Origin: a virus
Direction: 5' to 3' (one strand)
DNA: 35,299 nucleotides
Virus record (IMG/VR): IMGVR_UViG_3300023199_000272
Span: 1-35,299 of that record
Of the stretch, positions 396 to 35,299 are shown piece by piece. The notes below the pieces were generated by a model. That model saw only the letters and a program-made list of their open reading frames with translations. It searched no databases and was not told the DNA's origin. The translations under genes and the position numbers were made by a program. The first letter of the stretch is position 1, and every line of letters starts with the position of its first letter.

Positions 396-899
396 TCAAT
401 CCGTTTCTGAAAAATATTTGTCTAGCGATGCGTTTCCGGTTGCTTCGCCGCGCGGCTTTCTTTGAGCCTCAATCGCGGCTGCCACCTTCCCAACCTTCTC
501 AAGCGACGGCGCCTTGCTTCTCAGCTTCTCAAAATGCCGCCCACCAAAATAGAAGGTGATCACAACACCAAGGACAACCCACATCTCCTGCGGAACGGCC
601 TGCAAAGCCGTCATGGCCACCGTGAAGCCAGGCGGATCAGCTACGGCATAGACAAACAGCCCAACTGTTCCAAGGGCCATTAGCGGCCGCGGCATACGAT
701 TTATGCCATCCCAAAGAATGTCCCACCAAGAGCGCGTTGACGCCGCATAGCTAAATTCCCGCGCGTAAGCGTCCTGCAGGGCAACTTGCTCCGCATGATA
801 GGCCTTCTCGCGGCCTTCTTTATTCCCGAGCGTCACCTTGAATAATTCTGACAACGGCGATAGCAAGCTTGACAAGCCAGTGATCCAAGACAGCATCAT
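396..899 (-). CDS. Holin, three-helix GTA type
   Basis: This is a predicted holin of 167 residues, releasing the endolysin across the inner membrane. It has an N-terminal amphipathic region (ITGLSSLLSPLSELF), a charged linker (NKEGREKAYHAEQVALQDAY), an aromatic turn (RSWWDILWDGINR), and two clear membrane segments: about residues 75-95 (LMALGTVGLFVYAVADPP) and 105-122 (MWVVLGVVITFYFGG). The tail is charged. The linker followed by an SWW/NRMPRP region is typical of the GTA_holin_3TM family found in alphaproteobacterial phages and gene transfer agents. It follows the endolysin and its first 80 bases overlap the endolysin's 3' end in another frame. The holin start appears natural because the family normally begins with this hydrophobic helix. 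Confidence 0.75.
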   Translation of the reverse strand: MMLSWITGLSSLLSPLSELFKVTLGNKEGREKAYHAEQVALQDAYAREFSYAASTRSWWDILWDGINRMPRPLMALGTVGLFVYAVADPPGFTVAMTALQAVPQEMWVVLGVVITFYFGGRHFEKLRSKAPSLEKVGKVAAAIEAQRKPRGEATGNASLDKYFSETD

Positions 900-2010
900 T
901 AACCTCAGTGTTTAGCTCAACTTCAGGCTCTGGGATCAACTCGGGCTCGTCATCATTGACGGGCTCAAGCTGCTCAAGCTGATCAGGCCAGCGATAGCCA
1001 AGCAATTTTGTTTTTGGATATTTCGCTATATTAACAGAGTTTGATTGATTGCCGCCAAGCAAGTAAACATGCGTTCGCGTTTCGCGAATAAAGAACCCAA
1101 CATGCCCTTGCCAAGAGCTATTGCCACGCTTCAAAATGACGATGCAGCCCAATCGCGGCGAAGTGAGCTTCTTTCCCCATTTCAGATAAGAGCGCGCCAG
1201 CAGTGATTTCGTTGTGGGAAGCCCGGCCCGCTTTAAGACGGCGCCGACAAATGCGGCGCACCATGCCGTTTCATCGTCTTTTATGCCCGCAAAGCCCGCT
1301 TCACGAAAATATTGGACAATTGTTGCGTTGTGGCGCGTACGAGATGTGTTCTCTTTGACACCAAGCTCGCCACGGGCGATCTGCAGCCATTCCGGCTCGC
1401 CCAAAATGACGGGCACATCATCGTTCGCAGGCGCGCCAAGCGAAACGCGAAAGCTTTCTGAGCGGCGGAGCCAGCCCTTGAGAAAACGTTTCTTTTCCGG
1501 CTTGCGCCGCACAATGTCGCGAAAAAACGCGTTGCGCTCGTCAACAAGCGCATTGATCAGAACAGGGCCAAGCTTGCGGGAGCACGCCGCAGCCTGACGC
1601 GCGGTTTCCGGGCCAATTTCACCGTCAACGTCGCACGGAAAGCCCGCTTTATTCAACACCTCTTGAAGAATTCGCACAGCACGCGATGGGCCGTGGTTGA
1701 CGGCCATATCGAACACCTTGCCCTCAATAAAATCAGGCAACAGTGCCATGTTGGGACGCTCGTAATAATATTTGGCGTAGATTGATCGAGCTTCACCAAG
1801 TGTTAGCCGCCTCATTTCGGCGTCCGTGAGCGAGCGCACGGCGCGATGTTGCGCTAGCCGCTTTGCAGTAATCCCAAACTTTGTTCCGACAAGCTTGCCA
1901 TTTAGCCAATTGCCGTCGTCTTCACGCCACTGCTGAAAGCCGCCATCTGGCTCATTAGCACCTTCACGCTCAAGCGTAACGGCTAGCTGTCTTTCAAATT
2001 GCGTTGACAT
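820..2010 (-). CDS. Two-domain endolysin: GH108 muramidase plus CHAP/NlpC-like amidase
   Basis: This 396-residue peptidoglycan hydrolase carries two catalytic modules. Residues 1-190 match GH108 N-acetylmuramidase with its C-terminal peptidoglycan-binding part: REG at 15-17 with the expected catalytic Glu16, GTKFGIT at 42-48, DMAVNHGPSRAV at 101-112, and DVDGEIGPETA at 127-137. Residues 205-340 look like a cysteine amidase/endopeptidase of the CHAP/TIGR02594 type: AWCAAFVG with Cys251, QGHVGFF with His303, and GGNQSNSV with Asn321 as a possible third residue. A Glu/Pro-rich linker (345-370) leads to an amphipathic helix (LDHWLVKLAIAVVRIIQG). No signal peptide is visible, so export should need the holin next door. 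The ATG at 2010 follows the tail fibre stop by three bases. Confidence 0.85.
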   Translation of the reverse strand: MSTQFERQLAVTLEREGANEPDGGFQQWREDDGNWLNGKLVGTKFGITAKRLAQHRAVRSLTDAEMRRLTLGEARSIYAKYYYERPNMALLPDFIEGKVFDMAVNHGPSRAVRILQEVLNKAGFPCDVDGEIGPETARQAAACSRKLGPVLINALVDERNAFFRDIVRRKPEKKRFLKGWLRRSESFRVSLGAPANDDVPVILGEPEWLQIARGELGVKENTSRTRHNATIVQYFREAGFAGIKDDETAWCAAFVGAVLKRAGLPTTKSLLARSYLKWGKKLTSPRLGCIVILKRGNSSWQGHVGFFIRETRTHVYLLGGNQSNSVNIAKYPKTKLLGYRWPDQLEQLEPVNDDEPELIPEPEVELNTEVNDAVLDHWLVKLAIAVVRIIQGDARE

Positions 2011-24696: not shown

Positions 24697-24771
24697 TGGA
24701 TCACGGCGCAGGGACCGAACCTGCATTGTCGCATTCAAAGTGCGGTGTCCTACCAATTAGACGAGCCGTGA
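24697..24771 (-). tRNA. tRNA-Gln (anticodon UUG), CCA encoded
   Basis: Folded by eye on the minus strand. Acceptor TCACGGC pairs perfectly with GCCGTGA; the D-stem is GTCT/GGAC; the anticodon arm has loop CTTTGAA (24734-24740) with anticodon TTG at 24736-24738 and four paired bases plus one C-A mismatch; the T-arm is GCAGG-TTCGGTC-CCTGC. Position 73 is U and CCA is encoded (24697-24699), total 75 nt. The first pair is U1-A72, a feature of bacterial tRNA-Gln. Oddities are G58 instead of A in the T-loop, and U73. It is transcribed with the genes around it, so its processing would cut the transcript just before terL. Confidence 0.88.
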
Positions 24772-26112: not shown

Positions 26113-26649
26113 TTATTTTACAATTCTTGCAATGTCTTTTAGGGAGTTTTCGTTAAAAACCTCACCCAGAACTCTGTACACGCGAGCTTGCGTCGCTTTT
26201 GTCGTGTTGACACTGATCCGCGGCCAATTTTTCTGCAGCCAATCCCACTCAGAAATGGATGCGGGAGAATATCCGCTGTATGAACGGCTTGCTCCCATCC
26301 AATCTGCCACCATCTCGCGCACGAAATGCTCGGGCATGTCAATCGGCGTGACGCGCTCTGCGCCGCTCTGCAGCTTGTTCCCGCTGCGCGTAACCCAATA
26401 TTCCCAATGGTGCGGGTTTACGTTTTGGTGATGCAGCCAAGCGCGTGCAAACGCCTCATCGTTGCCGGTTTTGTCGCCGTGAAACTGGCGGGCGTACGGC
26501 AGAAGTTCGCTTGGCCCGAACTTGGAAAGATCATGAATAATCAATCGCCAAATCGGTACCTTTGTTCTGAGGCCTGCCATGAGCACAAAATACTTGTGCT
26601 GCAAGGTTGCCCAGACAAACTGAAGAACTGCTTTAATGTCGCGTTCCAT
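26113..26649 (-). CDS. DUF5662-like protein
   Basis: This 178-residue protein starts at the ATG at 26649, eight bases after AGGCG. It carries the signature of a small bacterial and phage family with a conserved His-Asp site: LQHKYFVLMAGLRTKVPIWR followed by IHDLSKFGPSELLPYARQF, then HHQNVNPHHWEYWV and VREMVADWMGASRSYSG. The HD.SKF and HH...H motifs suggest a metal-binding helical protein related in appearance to HD phosphohydrolases, although activity is not established for the family. It lies between the Acb2-like gene (65 bases away) and the five-helix membrane protein (three bases away). Confidence 0.75.
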   Translation of the reverse strand: MERDIKAVLQFVWATLQHKYFVLMAGLRTKVPIWRLIIHDLSKFGPSELLPYARQFHGDKTGNDEAFARAWLHHQNVNPHHWEYWVTRSGNKLQSGAERVTPIDMPEHFVREMVADWMGASRSYSGYSPASISEWDWLQKNWPRISVNTTKATQARVYRVLGEVFNENSLKDIARIVK

Positions 26650-26714
26650 AAAATCGCCTAGAATATTATACGTTTCGGCCCAAATGGGCGGTTTTGTATT
26701 TTCTATTATACAGC

Positions 26715-26969
26715 TTAGGCAAGCCCTGCTCGGGTTGCGGCCTGCTCCGAAATGTGACGGGTGCACCTCATGCACGCATCCTCCAAGTGCGTTTTCGCTA
26801 TGCTCAGCTCGCGTGAGTTGCCAAGGCCGTCAACAAACGCCCAAACGTGCGCAAAGGCCGCTCGCGCTGCCTCCATACGCGTCAATTCATCATCACTCAG
26901 CTTCACGCCAGCACTTGGAAACATGGCGCGCTCGCCAAGCTCAACGCGCTTCATATGATCGGAAATCAT
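26715..26969 (-). CDS. Acb2/Tad1-like hairpin protein, putative anti-CBASS cyclic-nucleotide sponge
   Basis: This 84-residue protein has a short N-terminal part and a helical hairpin: DDELTRMEAARAAFAHVWAF then GNSRELSIAKTHLEDACMRC-TRHI. The second helix matches the recurring phage pattern 'SRE-SLA-T-LE-A-MW---AI' that I associate with the Acb2/Tad1 hairpin family. Characterised Acb2 proteins bind cyclic di- and trinucleotides made by CBASS defence; Tad1 binds the Thoeris signal. Here Trp of the usual MWA motif is replaced (MRC), so ligand range is uncertain. AAAGGATGAC gives a good ribosome site, and the ATG overlaps the stop of a 58-codon gene (ATGA). The family call is from pattern memory and needs a profile search. 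Confidence 0.6.
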   Translation of the reverse strand: MISDHMKRVELGERAMFPSAGVKLSDDELTRMEAARAAFAHVWAFVDGLGNSRELSIAKTHLEDACMRCTRHISEQAATRAGLA

Positions 26970-27282: not shown

Positions 27283-27585
27283 TCAAAAAAAATCGTTAAC
27301 GTGATCGTCGTTAAATACCGTCGAAAAAGTTGGGCGCATACTGCCCCTGCACTTTATGAACAAATGGCCAATATCGTCCCACGCACCGATCAGGCCTTGC
27401 CGCCTGAAATACGGATCGAGCGCTGCATGTCCAGCAATACATGCCTGTGTGCCGCAAGCTGTTTTGTCGCCCCATGTGCCGATGCTAAATTCCTTCCGCA
27501 GCTTCGGGAGCCCTTCATAAGCGCCCTTGCGCTGCATAAGATCAACTAAACGCAGCAACAGCCTTTTAGTTCTCTTGTTCATCAT
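27283..27585 (-). CDS. CGTQACIAG-type phage protein, interrupted by a frameshift
   Basis: This is 100 residues from the ATG at 27585 (GGGGA upstream; a second ATG follows at once). It begins with a basic helix (MMNKRTKRLLLRLVDLMQRK), then FSIGTWGDKTACGTQACIAG with HAALDPYF. This Cys motif is common in small phage and mobile-element proteins of unknown function. The reading frame ends abruptly at a TGA formed within GATTTTTTTTGA (A8 on the plus strand at 27285-27292). The rest of the protein continues in the next frame to 27123. Either the gene is broken, the run is misread, or +1 slippage makes the full protein. It follows a structured RNA candidate. Confidence 0.6.
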   Translation of the reverse strand: MMNKRTKRLLLRLVDLMQRKGAYEGLPKLRKEFSIGTWGDKTACGTQACIAGHAALDPYFRRQGLIGAWDDIGHLFIKCRGSMRPTFSTVFNDDHVNDFF

Positions 27586-27609
27586 CAATTCCCCGCAATG
27601 AAATAAAAA

Positions 27610-27773
27610 TGGCACTCGTGGAACGCGTGCAGCCCACCCCCTCTTGATCTGTCAGCGCCCCTGCAGTGACGCATTAGCCGGCGCGCTTTCCGGCAAATCA
27701 ATCAAGCCTTTAACTTCTGCTGCTCGACACCCCCCAAGGGATTGCTTTAAGGTGACGCGCGCCACGAGTGCCA
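27610..27773 (-). ncRNA. Candidate structured RNA of about 164 nt
   Basis: The gap between two genes is closed by a 12-bp perfect inverted repeat (27610-27621 with 27762-27773). The helix continues inward after one mismatch and one G-U pair for five more pairs to 27628/27755. Inside, nested complementary pieces follow: 27629-27633 with 27719-27723, 27643-27648 with 27701-27706, 27677-27681 with 27690-27694, 27651-27654 with 27667-27670, and 27728-27731 with 27751-27754. All are compatible in one secondary structure. On the minus strand the closing helix is followed by ATTTTTATTTC, so a terminator or an attenuator is possible. It may be a free RNA or the leader of the following gene. Folded by eye only. 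Confidence 0.5.
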
Positions 27774-27780
27774 AATCGTG

Positions 27781-28065
27781 TTACGCAAAACCCTCTTTTT
27801 CGAAATCTCGACGCATGGCATAAATCGCGTTTGCCACTTGCTTGCCGTCGCGGCCGGCCTGAATGCTGTAGCGCTCGCTGTGTGAACGCCCGCCCTTGCG
27901 CACCGTCAAAACAACCTCAAGCATTCGCTCCTGTAGGTGCTCTGCAAAGTGAATTGTTGTTGGCATGCAAGAAAAGAACTTCTCAGCAATGGCCTCAAGC
28001 GCCATGAGCTTCAGCGTGTTCAGTTCCTCTGCCGCATCAATCATCTTTTCCGATAGCTTACCCAT
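27781..28065 (-). CDS. Small helical-plus-beta protein, unknown
   Basis: This 94-residue protein has an N-terminal helix pair (MIDAAEELNTLKLMALEAIA, HFAEHLQERMLEVV) and a C-terminal beta/helix part (VLTVRKGGRSHSERYSIQAG then VANAIYAMRRDFEKEGFA). No family is recognised. Its ATG overlaps the Com-like gene's end by eight bases (ATGGGTAA), so translation is probably coupled. In phage Mu the gene overlapping com is mom; this protein does not look like Mom. The structured RNA candidate begins a few bases after its stop. Confidence 0.65.
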   Translation of the reverse strand: MGKLSEKMIDAAEELNTLKLMALEAIAEKFFSCMPTTIHFAEHLQERMLEVVLTVRKGGRSHSERYSIQAGRDGKQVANAIYAMRRDFEKEGFA

Positions 28066-28288
28066 TCGCTTTCTTCCTTCGCTTTCTGACGCGCAACTGA
28101 GGTTCCAACACGTTTATGGTGCCGCAGCTTGGGCACCTGAGAATGCGCTCTATTAGGAGCGGTTTGAATTGAACGCGCGCATCGCACGCTCCGCACTCGA
28201 CAAGCTGATAGCCAGGCGCAGCATGCCGTCTAACTCTGAGACGCTTTCTATTTGCGTATTGGGCAATCTCACTTTCAACGCAGGACAT
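28058..28288 (-). CDS. Com-like zinc ribbon, putative RNA-binding regulator
   Basis: This is 76 residues from the ATG at 28288, chosen because TTGGAGC gives a ribosome site nine bases upstream; a longer version (start 28411) would add a low-complexity N-terminus encoded by RNA-like sequence. Two CxxC pairs (Cys32/35 and Cys52/55) are separated by 16 residues: ECGACD and ILRCPSCGTIN. The spacing and the 'IE-RCP-C' second knuckle match the Com zinc ribbon of Mu-like phages. Mu Com binds mom mRNA and exposes its start site. A basic tail (RVRKRRKKANG) would help RNA binding. The gene's own ribosome site lies in a hairpin. Target is unknown; a general zinc ribbon is the alternative. Confidence 0.65.
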   Translation of the reverse strand: MSCVESEIAQYANRKRLRVRRHAAPGYQLVECGACDARVQFKPLLIERILRCPSCGTINVLEPQLRVRKRRKKANG

Positions 28289-28296
28289 TGCGGTTT

Positions 28297-28320
28297 GCTC
28301 CAAGGTTTGCGATTTGGAGC
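28297..28320 (-). promoter_or_regulatory. Hairpin covering the Com-like gene's ribosome site
   Basis: On the minus strand GCTCCAA (28314-28320) and TTGGAGC (28297-28303) form a perfect 7-bp stem with a 10-base loop. The 3' arm is the GGAG ribosome site of the gene starting at 28288, and the 5' arm is the CCA-bearing end of the tRNA-like element. The two structures compete for two acceptor-stem bases, so only one can form fully. Confidence 0.6.
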
Positions 28321-28360
28321 TGCCGACAGGCTTCGAACCTGTAAGCTGATCTGCGGCAGC
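28315..28360 (-). ncRNA. tRNA-like minihelix (acceptor and T-arm only, CCA encoded)
   Basis: On the minus strand GCTGCCG (28354-28360) pairs perfectly with CGGCAGC (28319-28325). T-arm ACAGG-TTCGAAG-CCTGT (28326-28342) abuts the 3' acceptor strand exactly as in tRNA. Position 73 is T, followed by encoded CCA (28315-28317). Only 11 bases (28343-28353) stand where the D and anticodon arms would be. G1-C72, C2-G71 and U73 resemble tRNA-Gly acceptors. A normal full-length cloverleaf could not be built from the upstream sequence (best upstream acceptor match 5 of 7). It may be an RNase P-type substrate, a regulatory decoy, a decayed tRNA, or a tRNA-derived attachment core. Confidence 0.5.
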
Positions 28361-28410
28361 AATTGAGTGTGTTGGCGGCTCTGCTAACCACATGTCAGCT
28401 TCGCTTATCA

Positions 28411-29001
28411 TCAGTTGATGTCCTTCACGTTCCGCCCCTCGTTTTCGCCTGAAGCGCCCTCGCCGCCGTCGTTATCTTTGTGCGGGCTGAACTGCTTGTG
28501 CCAATCTGTTGCTGTGTAGGCCTTGTCGTCTGGCAACGTGCCAACAACGTGCACCTTGTGCGTAACCTCAGCTTCGCTCTTGTCTTTCTCACCAAGACGC
28601 TGCTTGCGCATCCATATGTGCACCTGAGGATTGACGCGGCTCAGAAACTCACCGGCAGCACGCAGCTCAAGCTTGCCCATTGCATCGCCCTGCTCCCATG
28701 CTGCTGCTGTCGCTTCATCCTCCTTGATCTGCTTTCGCAGCCAATTTTCCGAGACGCCTATTGCGGCCGCCGCCTCAGCGGGCGTTGCGCCAAGCTTGGC
28801 CAGCTGCTGAATGAACACGCGCCCTGTATCGGTGAGCAGCATGCTCGGGTTGAGGCCTGGCACCACAGAGACGCGAGACACCAAGGGCTCGTCTGGGCGC
28901 ACAATTAGGCCGGTGTCTGCAGCCGCTTCGCGCGTCTCGTCTAGCTCTTCCTTTTTGCCTTTCTTGCGGGGCATCTCATTCAAGCGCGATAGCTGCGCCA
29001 T
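28411..29001 (-). CDS. Putative terminase small subunit (HTH protein)
   Basis: The product is 196 residues (187 from the alternative ATG at 28974, which avoids overlap with the small gene upstream). A basic N-terminus (MPRKKGKKEE) leads to an HTH unit, LAKLGATPAEAAAAIGVSEN with WLRKQIKEDEATAAAWEQGD, then a helix and NPQVHIWMRKQRLGEKDK. The run 'HTH, A-W--G, L-----, N---HIW--KQ-LG-KDK' is typical of phage small terminase-like DNA-recognition proteins. The C-terminus is acidic and disordered. It lies about 4 kb before terL, separated by an accessory cassette, which is unusual. A transcriptional regulator of similar build cannot be excluded. Confidence 0.65.
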   Translation of the reverse strand: MAQLSRLNEMPRKKGKKEELDETREAAADTGLIVRPDEPLVSRVSVVPGLNPSMLLTDTGRVFIQQLAKLGATPAEAAAAIGVSENWLRKQIKEDEATAAAWEQGDAMGKLELRAAGEFLSRVNPQVHIWMRKQRLGEKDKSEAEVTHKVHVVGTLPDDKAYTATDWHKQFSPHKDNDGGEGASGENEGRNVKDIN

Positions 29002-33290: not shown

Positions 33291-33962
33291 ATGAAAATGA
33301 AAAACTCAATCTTGACGGCGTTGATGTGCGCCCTCACGTTGACGGGGGCGCTGGCTCACAACGCAACCGCGAGCGAGCTGGGCGGCGGTGGCGCGATGAC
33401 GGGTGTGTTTCTCGGGTTTGGCGTCGGCGGGCAACGTGTGGAGGCGGACGCAACTGGCGTAGCGTCAATGAGTGAAACCGGCGCTATAGGACAGGCCGTC
33501 GCCATAGCTCAATATGATTTTGGCGGCCTAGTTGTTGGGGGTGAGGCGCAAGCGAGCTACGCAGATAACAAGGCGTCGGCCGACTGCTCAGCACCTATAG
33601 GATTTGCCGGCATCAACTGTGCATCGCAGCAACAGGTGTCCTTCGCGCTGCTCGGGCGCGTCGGCTTTGCGTTTGGTGGCTTTATGCCATATGCGACCGC
33701 TGGCTTTGCAGTTGCGCCAAATACATCGGCGGGATTGGAGGGCTTCGGTGTGAAGCTGTCTCAAGAACTCGATTACGACGGGAAAGCGTTCGGCGGTGGC
33801 GTTATGTGGCGCGCTGCCGACTGGGTTGCCGTAGACGTGCAGTATCTGAAAATTGATTACGACACTGAGGAGTTGTCAGTTCCTGCCATTGCGTTTTCAC
33901 AAGACGTGGAAATGGAGGAGCAGCGCGTTGTGGCGCGCGTACTATTTCCGATTTGGCGTTAA
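33291..33962 (+). CDS. Outer-membrane beta-barrel protein, possible lysogenic-conversion gene
   Basis: This 223-residue protein has a clear signal peptide (MKMKNSILTALMCALTLTGA, cleavage near NATAS/E) and a small-porin or opacity-protein pattern: alternating beta strands with Gly and aromatic residues (VFLGFGVGGQRV, AIAQYDFGGLVVGGEAQASY, FALLGRVGFAFGGFMPYATA, GGGVMWRAADWVAVDVQYLK), ending in hydrophobic sequence (RVVARVLFPIW) typical of barrel termini. Length fits an eight-stranded barrel. AAGGATGTC before ATG is a good ribosome site. It is on the plus strand, apart from the late genes and near the repressor, like lom of lambda, so expression from the prophage to alter the host surface is likely. 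Confidence 0.75.
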   Translation: MKMKNSILTALMCALTLTGALAHNATASELGGGGAMTGVFLGFGVGGQRVEADATGVASMSETGAIGQAVAIAQYDFGGLVVGGEAQASYADNKASADCSAPIGFAGINCASQQQVSFALLGRVGFAFGGFMPYATAGFAVAPNTSAGLEGFGVKLSQELDYDGKAFGGGVMWRAADWVAVDVQYLKIDYDTEELSVPAIAFSQDVEMEEQRVVARVLFPIWR

Positions 33963-34693: not shown

Positions 34694-35299
34694 CTAATCA
34701 GCGTAATTAAACGATGGTTCGGGCGTAAACGTACCCAACACCATGCCCTTAACAACAACGTCGTCACCGCCAACCGAGACCTTTTCGCCATCGGTGAGGA
34801 GTGTCAGAGAATCGTCCGAAGCGGCAAGGGCGATGACATGCCTATAGAGGCGCCCAGAGACATTAGACACCATGTGATGAGAGCCAGGAACAATCGCGCC
34901 ACCCTTTCGGACAGCCACCAAGCTGCCCTCGCTGAAAATACCGCCACAATCCTCGACAACACGAGCAACGAAAGCCTCGGGCTCGTAAAGATCAATTGGC
35001 ATGGAAATCAAATGACGTTTGTGAGGCGGCAGTTTGGATTGCTCACGCCACAAGCCGGGAGCCAACTCGTAAGAGATGCGTAAGCGGCCGGGGATGCGGA
35101 GGGGCGCCAGCTCATCAAATGGCACCCCTAACGCCTCACCCGCGCGCTCTATCCAGTCTATTGATGTCTTTCTTTCCCCACGTATCAAACGCCCTATCTC
35201 TTGGTGTGACGTGCCCAAAATTCGGCCAAGCGCAGCCTGGCTGATGCCCAGCCGCTGGCGCGTTGCCTCCAGTTCATTCCAAGGCCGAAATTTTGGCAT
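34694..35299 (-). CDS. XRE/S24-type phage repressor, cleavage dyad apparently degenerate
   Basis: This 201-residue protein has an N-terminal XRE HTH (LEATRQRLGISQAALGRILG, SHQEIGRLIRGERKTSIDWI) and a C-terminal part with the LexA/CI fold pattern (FSEGSLVAVRKGGAIVPGSH, DDVVVKGMVLGTF). Such repressors hold the prophage silent and are cleaved under RecA control using a Ser-Lys dyad. Here the position expected for Ser (in D-S-M) reads D-C-G, and the position expected for Lys near the strand 'GRLYRHVIAL' reads Arg. The ATG is the last three bases of the window, so the operators and any cro gene lie beyond the edge. The HTH call is strong, the dyad loss moderately sure. Confidence 0.75.
   Translation of the reverse strand: MPKFRPWNELEATRQRLGISQAALGRILGTSHQEIGRLIRGERKTSIDWIERAGEALGVPFDELAPLRIPGRLRISYELAPGLWREQSKLPPHKRHLISMPIDLYEPEAFVARVVEDCGGIFSEGSLVAVRKGGAIVPGSHHMVSNVSGRLYRHVIALAASDDSLTLLTDGEKVSVGGDDVVVKGMVLGTFTPEPSFNYAD

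Follow-up and report, generated by a model that had tools for sequence, protein, structure and literature searches.

The tRNA-like element between the terminase small subunit gene (terS) and a small zinc-ribbon gene of this phage is probably, at odds that we put at roughly 60%, the relic of a tRNA that has become part of a coding region rather than a switch for the neighbouring gene. The window, by which we mean the whole stretch of 35,299 bases that was analysed, corresponds to a single IMG/VR virus record, whose minus strand carries a block of late genes. On that strand, positions 28360-28315 read GCTGCCG-CAGATCAGCTT-ACAGG-TTCGAAG-CCTGT-CGGCAGC-T-CCA, 46 nt with intact acceptor and T stems that lie in an open frame and resemble the 3' halves of tRNAs. 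A decayed tRNA had been named as an alternative in the original prediction, and it holds up on its blastn matches to tRNAs, on tRNAs with the same acceptor and on deleted tRNAs found elsewhere. We suggest that an internal deletion would have removed the D arm and almost the whole anticodon arm from a phage-borne tRNA gene, sparing the acceptor stem, the T-arm, UCCA and some of the variable loop, and that this relic would have been absorbed into the 5' part of the zinc-ribbon gene. Ribosomes ending terS may then restart at the overlapping ATG at 28411 and read through the relic (residues ...IAAADQLTGSKPVGSSK...). The relic RNA would fold as three adjacent hairpins rather than as a minihelix, and terS-coupled translation would be the main source of the zinc-ribbon protein, because the last hairpin covers the internal ribosome site (28301).

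The features discussed here are the following.

28354-28360, minus strand: 5' strand of the acceptor stem, GCTGCCG, with seven Watson-Crick pairs to 28319-28325
28343-28353, minus strand: 11-base linker CAGATCAGCTT replacing the D and anticodon arms; AGCTT at the 3' end of the linker aligns to the tRNA variable loop (blastn)
28326-28342, minus strand: T-arm ACAGG-TTCGAAG-CCTGT; T-stem 28342-28338 / 28330-28326, five pairs; loop TTCGAAG at 28337-28331
28319-28325, minus strand: 3' strand of the acceptor stem, CGGCAGC, from sequence and pairing
28315-28318, minus strand: discriminator T (U73) at 28318 and encoded CCA at 28317-28315
28297-28320, minus strand: hairpin GCTCCAA(ATCGCAAACC)TTGGAGC over the internal ribosome site; 7 pairs, 10-base loop, -8.2 kcal/mol, z -3.4
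28298-28301, minus strand: GGAG, possible Shine-Dalgarno (SD) for the internal ATG at 28288, which follows 9 bases further on; the GGAG lies within CCTTGGAG (28305-28298)
28343-28401, minus strand: upstream hairpin whose formation uses up the 5' acceptor strand plus linker, precluding the minihelix; 59 nt, 20 bp, -23.1 kcal/mol, z -3.49
28058-28411, minus strand: 117-aa open reading frame whose start overlaps the terS stop (TGATG) and which contains the whole tRNA-like element; C-terminal zinc ribbon, weakly Com-like
28058-28288, minus strand: 76-aa form from the internal start, an ATG with GGAG 9 bases upstream, as assumed earlier
28411-29001, minus strand: probable terS, immediately upstream (phrog_309, E 6e-4)
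24697-24771, minus strand: intact tRNA-Gln(TTG) with U73-CCA (ARAGORN; Rfam, 51 bits), within this late region and immediately before the large terminase gene (terL)

Anatomy of the element and chance expectation

The 7-bp acceptor, 5-bp T-stem, TTCGAAG loop, U73, encoded CCA and 11-base linker of the original prediction were all confirmed from sequence and pairing. All 12 stem pairs (7 acceptor, 5 T-stem) are Watson-Crick, and the stems abut in the fashion of a tRNA. The 17-nt T-arm hairpin has a z score of -3.95 and is the single perfect T-arm in the window with a TTCRA loop followed by N-CCA. Chance expectation was modelled with 60 first-order Markov genomes of window length, scored for 7 + 5 pairs, wobble pairs included, with a TTCRA loop and a linker shorter than 30 bases. 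Without a CCA requirement these yielded 3 elements in 60 genomes, or 0.05 per genome, against exactly one in the real window; with N-CCA required they yielded 0 in 60. Arithmetic scaling (0.05 x 1/64) gives an expectation with CCA of ~8e-4 per genome, lower still for all-Watson-Crick stems. When synonymous codons were randomised with the peptide fixed, the T-stem arose in 25% of cases, against 0.15% for the acceptor stem and 0.5% for the SD hairpin; the rarity of the latter two argues that the stem pairing is not a by-product of the encoded peptide.

Similarity to phage tRNAs

The element shares with tRNA genes (RF00005) and phage tRNA pseudogenes a 7-bp acceptor, a 5-bp T-stem, a 7-base loop containing TTCGA, U73 and encoded CCA. 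In contrast to tRNA genes, its 46 nt have neither D arm nor anticodon arm, and it lies, unusually, within a protein-coding frame next to terS. Searches with tRNA models, proposed as a check on the original prediction, did not recognise 28360-28315: ARAGORN and the Rfam tRNA model made a sole detection in the window, the tRNA-Gln. In a blastn search of a 131-base stretch against 50,697 phage records, weak matches were found to tRNA-Arg genes of phiEco32 and Felixounavirus phages, and likewise to unannotated tRNA-like stretches. The tRNA matches span 35-40 bases, from TTACAGGTTCGAA-CCTGT to CCA, which corresponds to the variable loop, T-arm and CCA end; one by one they are weak (E 0.03 to 5), and they are specific to tRNAs. 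Because these parts match annotated phage tRNA-Arg genes, if weakly, the element is very probably tRNA-derived. The identical acceptor GCTGCCG/CGGCAGC occurs in tRNA-like matches of 14 viral contigs, several of them called tRNA-Thr, and complete viral tRNAs carrying it were found. As such, the element combines similarity to real tRNAs with the loss of essential arms, as a tRNA pseudogene or relic would.

Patterns for tRNAs with a shortened middle identified comparable truncations in other viral contigs. In contig L116 (3609-3658) a 7-bp acceptor, a 15-base linker with an anticodon-stem remnant, a T-arm and U73-CCA are present and the D arm is deleted too; the linker ends in AAGCTGAAGTC, as tRNA-Gly does, and the truncated tRNA adjoins a tRNA-Leu and overlaps the end of a CDS. 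L158 (1764-1720, minus strand) has a 10-base linker and TCCA, with the D arm deleted as well as the anticodon arm, while L112 (5691-5634, minus strand) and L137 (14352-14412) have kept the D arm and lost the anticodon arm. These four resemble the present element in their intact acceptor and T-arm and deleted anticodon arm; they differ from it in acceptor sequence or isotype and have no adjacent pair of terS and zinc-ribbon genes. They are possibly a recurring class, whether of deletion relics or of minihelices. A deleted tRNA is the simplest origin of our element given the tRNA blastn matches, the same-acceptor viral tRNAs, these similar deletions, the phage's own tRNA-Gln and a tRNA-Thr(TGT) 2.4 kb before terL in a TerL relative (L058). 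A full-length tRNA using an upstream D-arm-like AGCTGACATGTGGTTAGCAG was rejected on inspection, as the preceding bases do not pair with CGGCAGC.

U73 together with G1:C72 and C2:G71 suits glycine charging, a speculative thought for the present RNA. U73 is also a cysteine determinant in minihelices (PMC9976931), and its application here would be equally speculative; several of the same-acceptor tRNAs are Thr, unlike either of these charging ideas. Nothing here favours a role as tRNA decoy against defence systems that cut CCA ends (Cas12a3, PMC12851939), which was also considered. We infer that tRNA-type function is absent. Weighing against a relic, the 12 pairs, T-loop and CCA are all intact, more than should be expected of an old relic unless the deletion was recent, and the odds of the acceptor stem and SD hairpin under synonymous codon choice are low; so do the weakness of the individual blastn matches and the presumptive status of the 28411 start. 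If the element is a relic, it illustrates how a phage tRNA gene sheds its decoding arms and becomes coding sequence of a small regulator-like gene, and warns that such remnants are overlooked by tRNA-finding tools.

Reading frame and RNA folding in context

The original prediction had the Com-like gene start at 28288. An ATG preceded by GGAG is indeed present there, but the frame is open upstream to the ATG at 28411 that overlaps the terS stop, and the element therefore falls within the 117-aa frame. This upstream ATG is preceded by AAGGA ~9 bases away. The 41 codons upstream of 28288 are stop-free and score 0.093 per codon when measured against the codon usage of this phage, exceeding 91% of stop-free wrong-frame windows, with 12% of real-gene windows lower still; the zinc-ribbon core scores only -0.07. 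From this gene-like codon usage, the element most likely lies inside a translated frame, and the Com-like gene could be translated from 28411, coupled to terS, bypassing the internal SD.

All folds are predictions at 37 C that consider RNA free of proteins and translation. The 7-bp hairpin described earlier as covering GGAG and using two acceptor bases and the UCCAA end was recovered at 28320-28297, with every pair probability above 0.84 in context, and is real as a predicted structure. The comparison of competing folds proposed at the outset was run and favours the upstream hairpin (28401-28343) over the minihelix by ~8 kcal/mol, the cost of forcing the minihelix into the context fold. The upstream hairpin dominates that fold (0 of 200 shuffles were as stable), and the acceptor pairs have a probability of ~0 in the 154-nt leader. 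The original proposal made translation of the Com-like gene depend on whether the minihelix is folded, processed or charged, and these values speak against it. In an RNA starting at 28360, where the minihelix is possible, the four bases of GGAG have unpaired probabilities of 0, 0, 0.09 and 0.25, and in an RNA starting after the CCA end they are still mostly paired, bar one base. Because GGAG stays mostly paired with the minihelix, and because the minihelix overlaps the SD hairpin by just two bases, so that both can form together, an exclusive switch is not predicted by the energies; a start at 28411 would bypass the internal SD in any case.

Nor did conservation lend support to such a switch, as no related phage carrying the element was found. 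The 117-aa frame had no relatives in viral_contigs or genome_contigs, and against phages and plasmids just weak, unrelated-looking matches to transposases or unannotated stretches. TerS had no relatives in viral_contigs and one weak phage match. Scanning 80 loci with related TerL (at most 53% identity, 852 kb) for minihelices and zinc-ribbon frames revealed no homologue; one look-alike (L046, 7885, minus strand) has wobble pairs and was judged to be chance. The Mu-type com loci of ten other phages showed no T-arm upstream.

Alternative explanations

The element may instead be a functional acceptor/T-arm minihelix that serves as a signal for RNase P (and a tRNA 3'-end nuclease) in the late mRNA, separating the terS and zinc-ribbon messages and exposing the internal ribosome site, a reading that we consider unlikely. 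Acceptor/T-arm hairpins are efficient model substrates of bacterial RNase P (PMC11143913), and the element has their coaxial acceptor and T-stem-loop and 3' CCA, with stems and loop intact, U at -1 and G at +1; it differs from them in the 11-base bulge that separates the acceptor 5' strand from the T-stem and in its competing upstream hairpin. Similar elements occur in other viral contigs, one of them (L116) overlapping a CDS end, and ribosomes loading at 28411 could open the upstream hairpin, letting the minihelix form. However, the minihelix is predicted not to form in its own transcript, no conserved copy was found, cleavage would sever the 117-aa frame, and GGAG would, one base excepted, stay mostly paired even in the RNA that begins past the CCA end. 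A broader form of this idea, in our view distinctly improbable, is that phages keep arm-stripped minihelices as RNase P/CCA processing signals in mRNA or as decoys, with L116 and L158 as further members and with terS and the Com-like gene cut apart here only when ribosomes from 28411 melt the competing hairpin. Should the minihelix indeed be produced and processed, a structure familiar chiefly from in vitro work would have a natural example, and phages a means of cutting their own mRNA with a host enzyme.

It is also rather unlikely that the ribosome-site hairpin controls the zinc-ribbon gene, possibly through a Com-like protein binding its own leader at CCTTGGAG, with the tRNA likeness incidental or recruited. 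The 7-bp hairpin over GGAG is more stable than expected (z -3.4), and when 29 other gene leaders were set behind this CCA end, none reached 7 pairs. Mu Com binds a CC(N)2-3GAG hairpin motif (PMC6483171), which CCTTGGAG with its GGAG fits, but the fit is weak because a motif of five fixed bases is common (~1.5 occurrences per kb). The likeness to Mu Com (PF10122) and the com-mom leader hairpins lies in the small CxxC...CxxC zinc ribbon, here with the pairs CGAC and CPSC in 28058-28411, and in a CC(N)3GAG within a ribosome-site hairpin. In contrast to Com itself, the C-terminal ribbon scores 17.1 bits (E 0.004) against PF10122, below the cut-off of 22.9, and is also a sub-threshold match to LysW-type ribbons; the downstream frames 27781-28065 and 27283-27615 have no match to mom or a DNA methylase; and in Mu the leader hairpin belongs to mom, not com. 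A start at 28411 would again bypass the hairpin. As such, self-regulation of the zinc ribbon through CCTTGGAG is, by analogy with Mu, a lead and no more. In several Pseudomonas phages (L007, L009, L010, L013, L015 and L016), com is often unannotated and lies before a methylase or Mom-like gene; about 170 nt ahead of com these loci share a similar leader, GCCTGCAAGCC...AGGCC...GAGCCTA, which is GC-rich, looks structured and has no Rfam match, and phage Bise has a reverse transcriptase gene just upstream.

Inverted repeats that arose by chance, or an element acting as DNA, for example a pac (packaging) site, with a fortuitous likeness to a tRNA top half, would accord with the position beside terS and with the several inverted repeats clustered there, but are very improbable: the T-loop consensus, 7 + 5 pair geometry, gapless stems and N-CCA are all tRNA-like, fewer than ~1e-3 such elements are expected per window, and tRNA genes are among the best DNA matches. 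The T-arm to CCA of a tRNA is the usual core of a phage attachment site, and the HTH repressor gene of phage type at 34694-35299 is a hint of a temperate lifestyle, while the deleted tRNA of L112 lies ~1 kb from a probable integrase gene. An attachment core, also named originally, is nonetheless the least probable reading, since the T-arm and acceptor 3' strand occur once in the record and have 0 exact matches among the 84,980 species genomes of genome_contigs (the comparison for a host tRNA 3' end proposed earlier, made on a collection that may lack the true host), no tyrosine or serine recombinase (PF00589, PF00239) was found in the 35.3-kb record, itself possibly a fragment, integration here, with terS on one side and terL on the other, would break up the late genes, and the element includes the 5' acceptor strand too.

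Other features of the record

A DUF5662 protein is encoded between terL and terS (26113-26775, minus strand). An endolysin with GH108 and PG_binding_3 domains lies at 820-2010 (minus strand), and its C-terminal part matches a tail-lysozyme family (phrog_1259). At 33291-33962 (plus strand) the window encodes an outer-membrane beta-barrel protein (PF13505), possibly a gene that changes the host surface.
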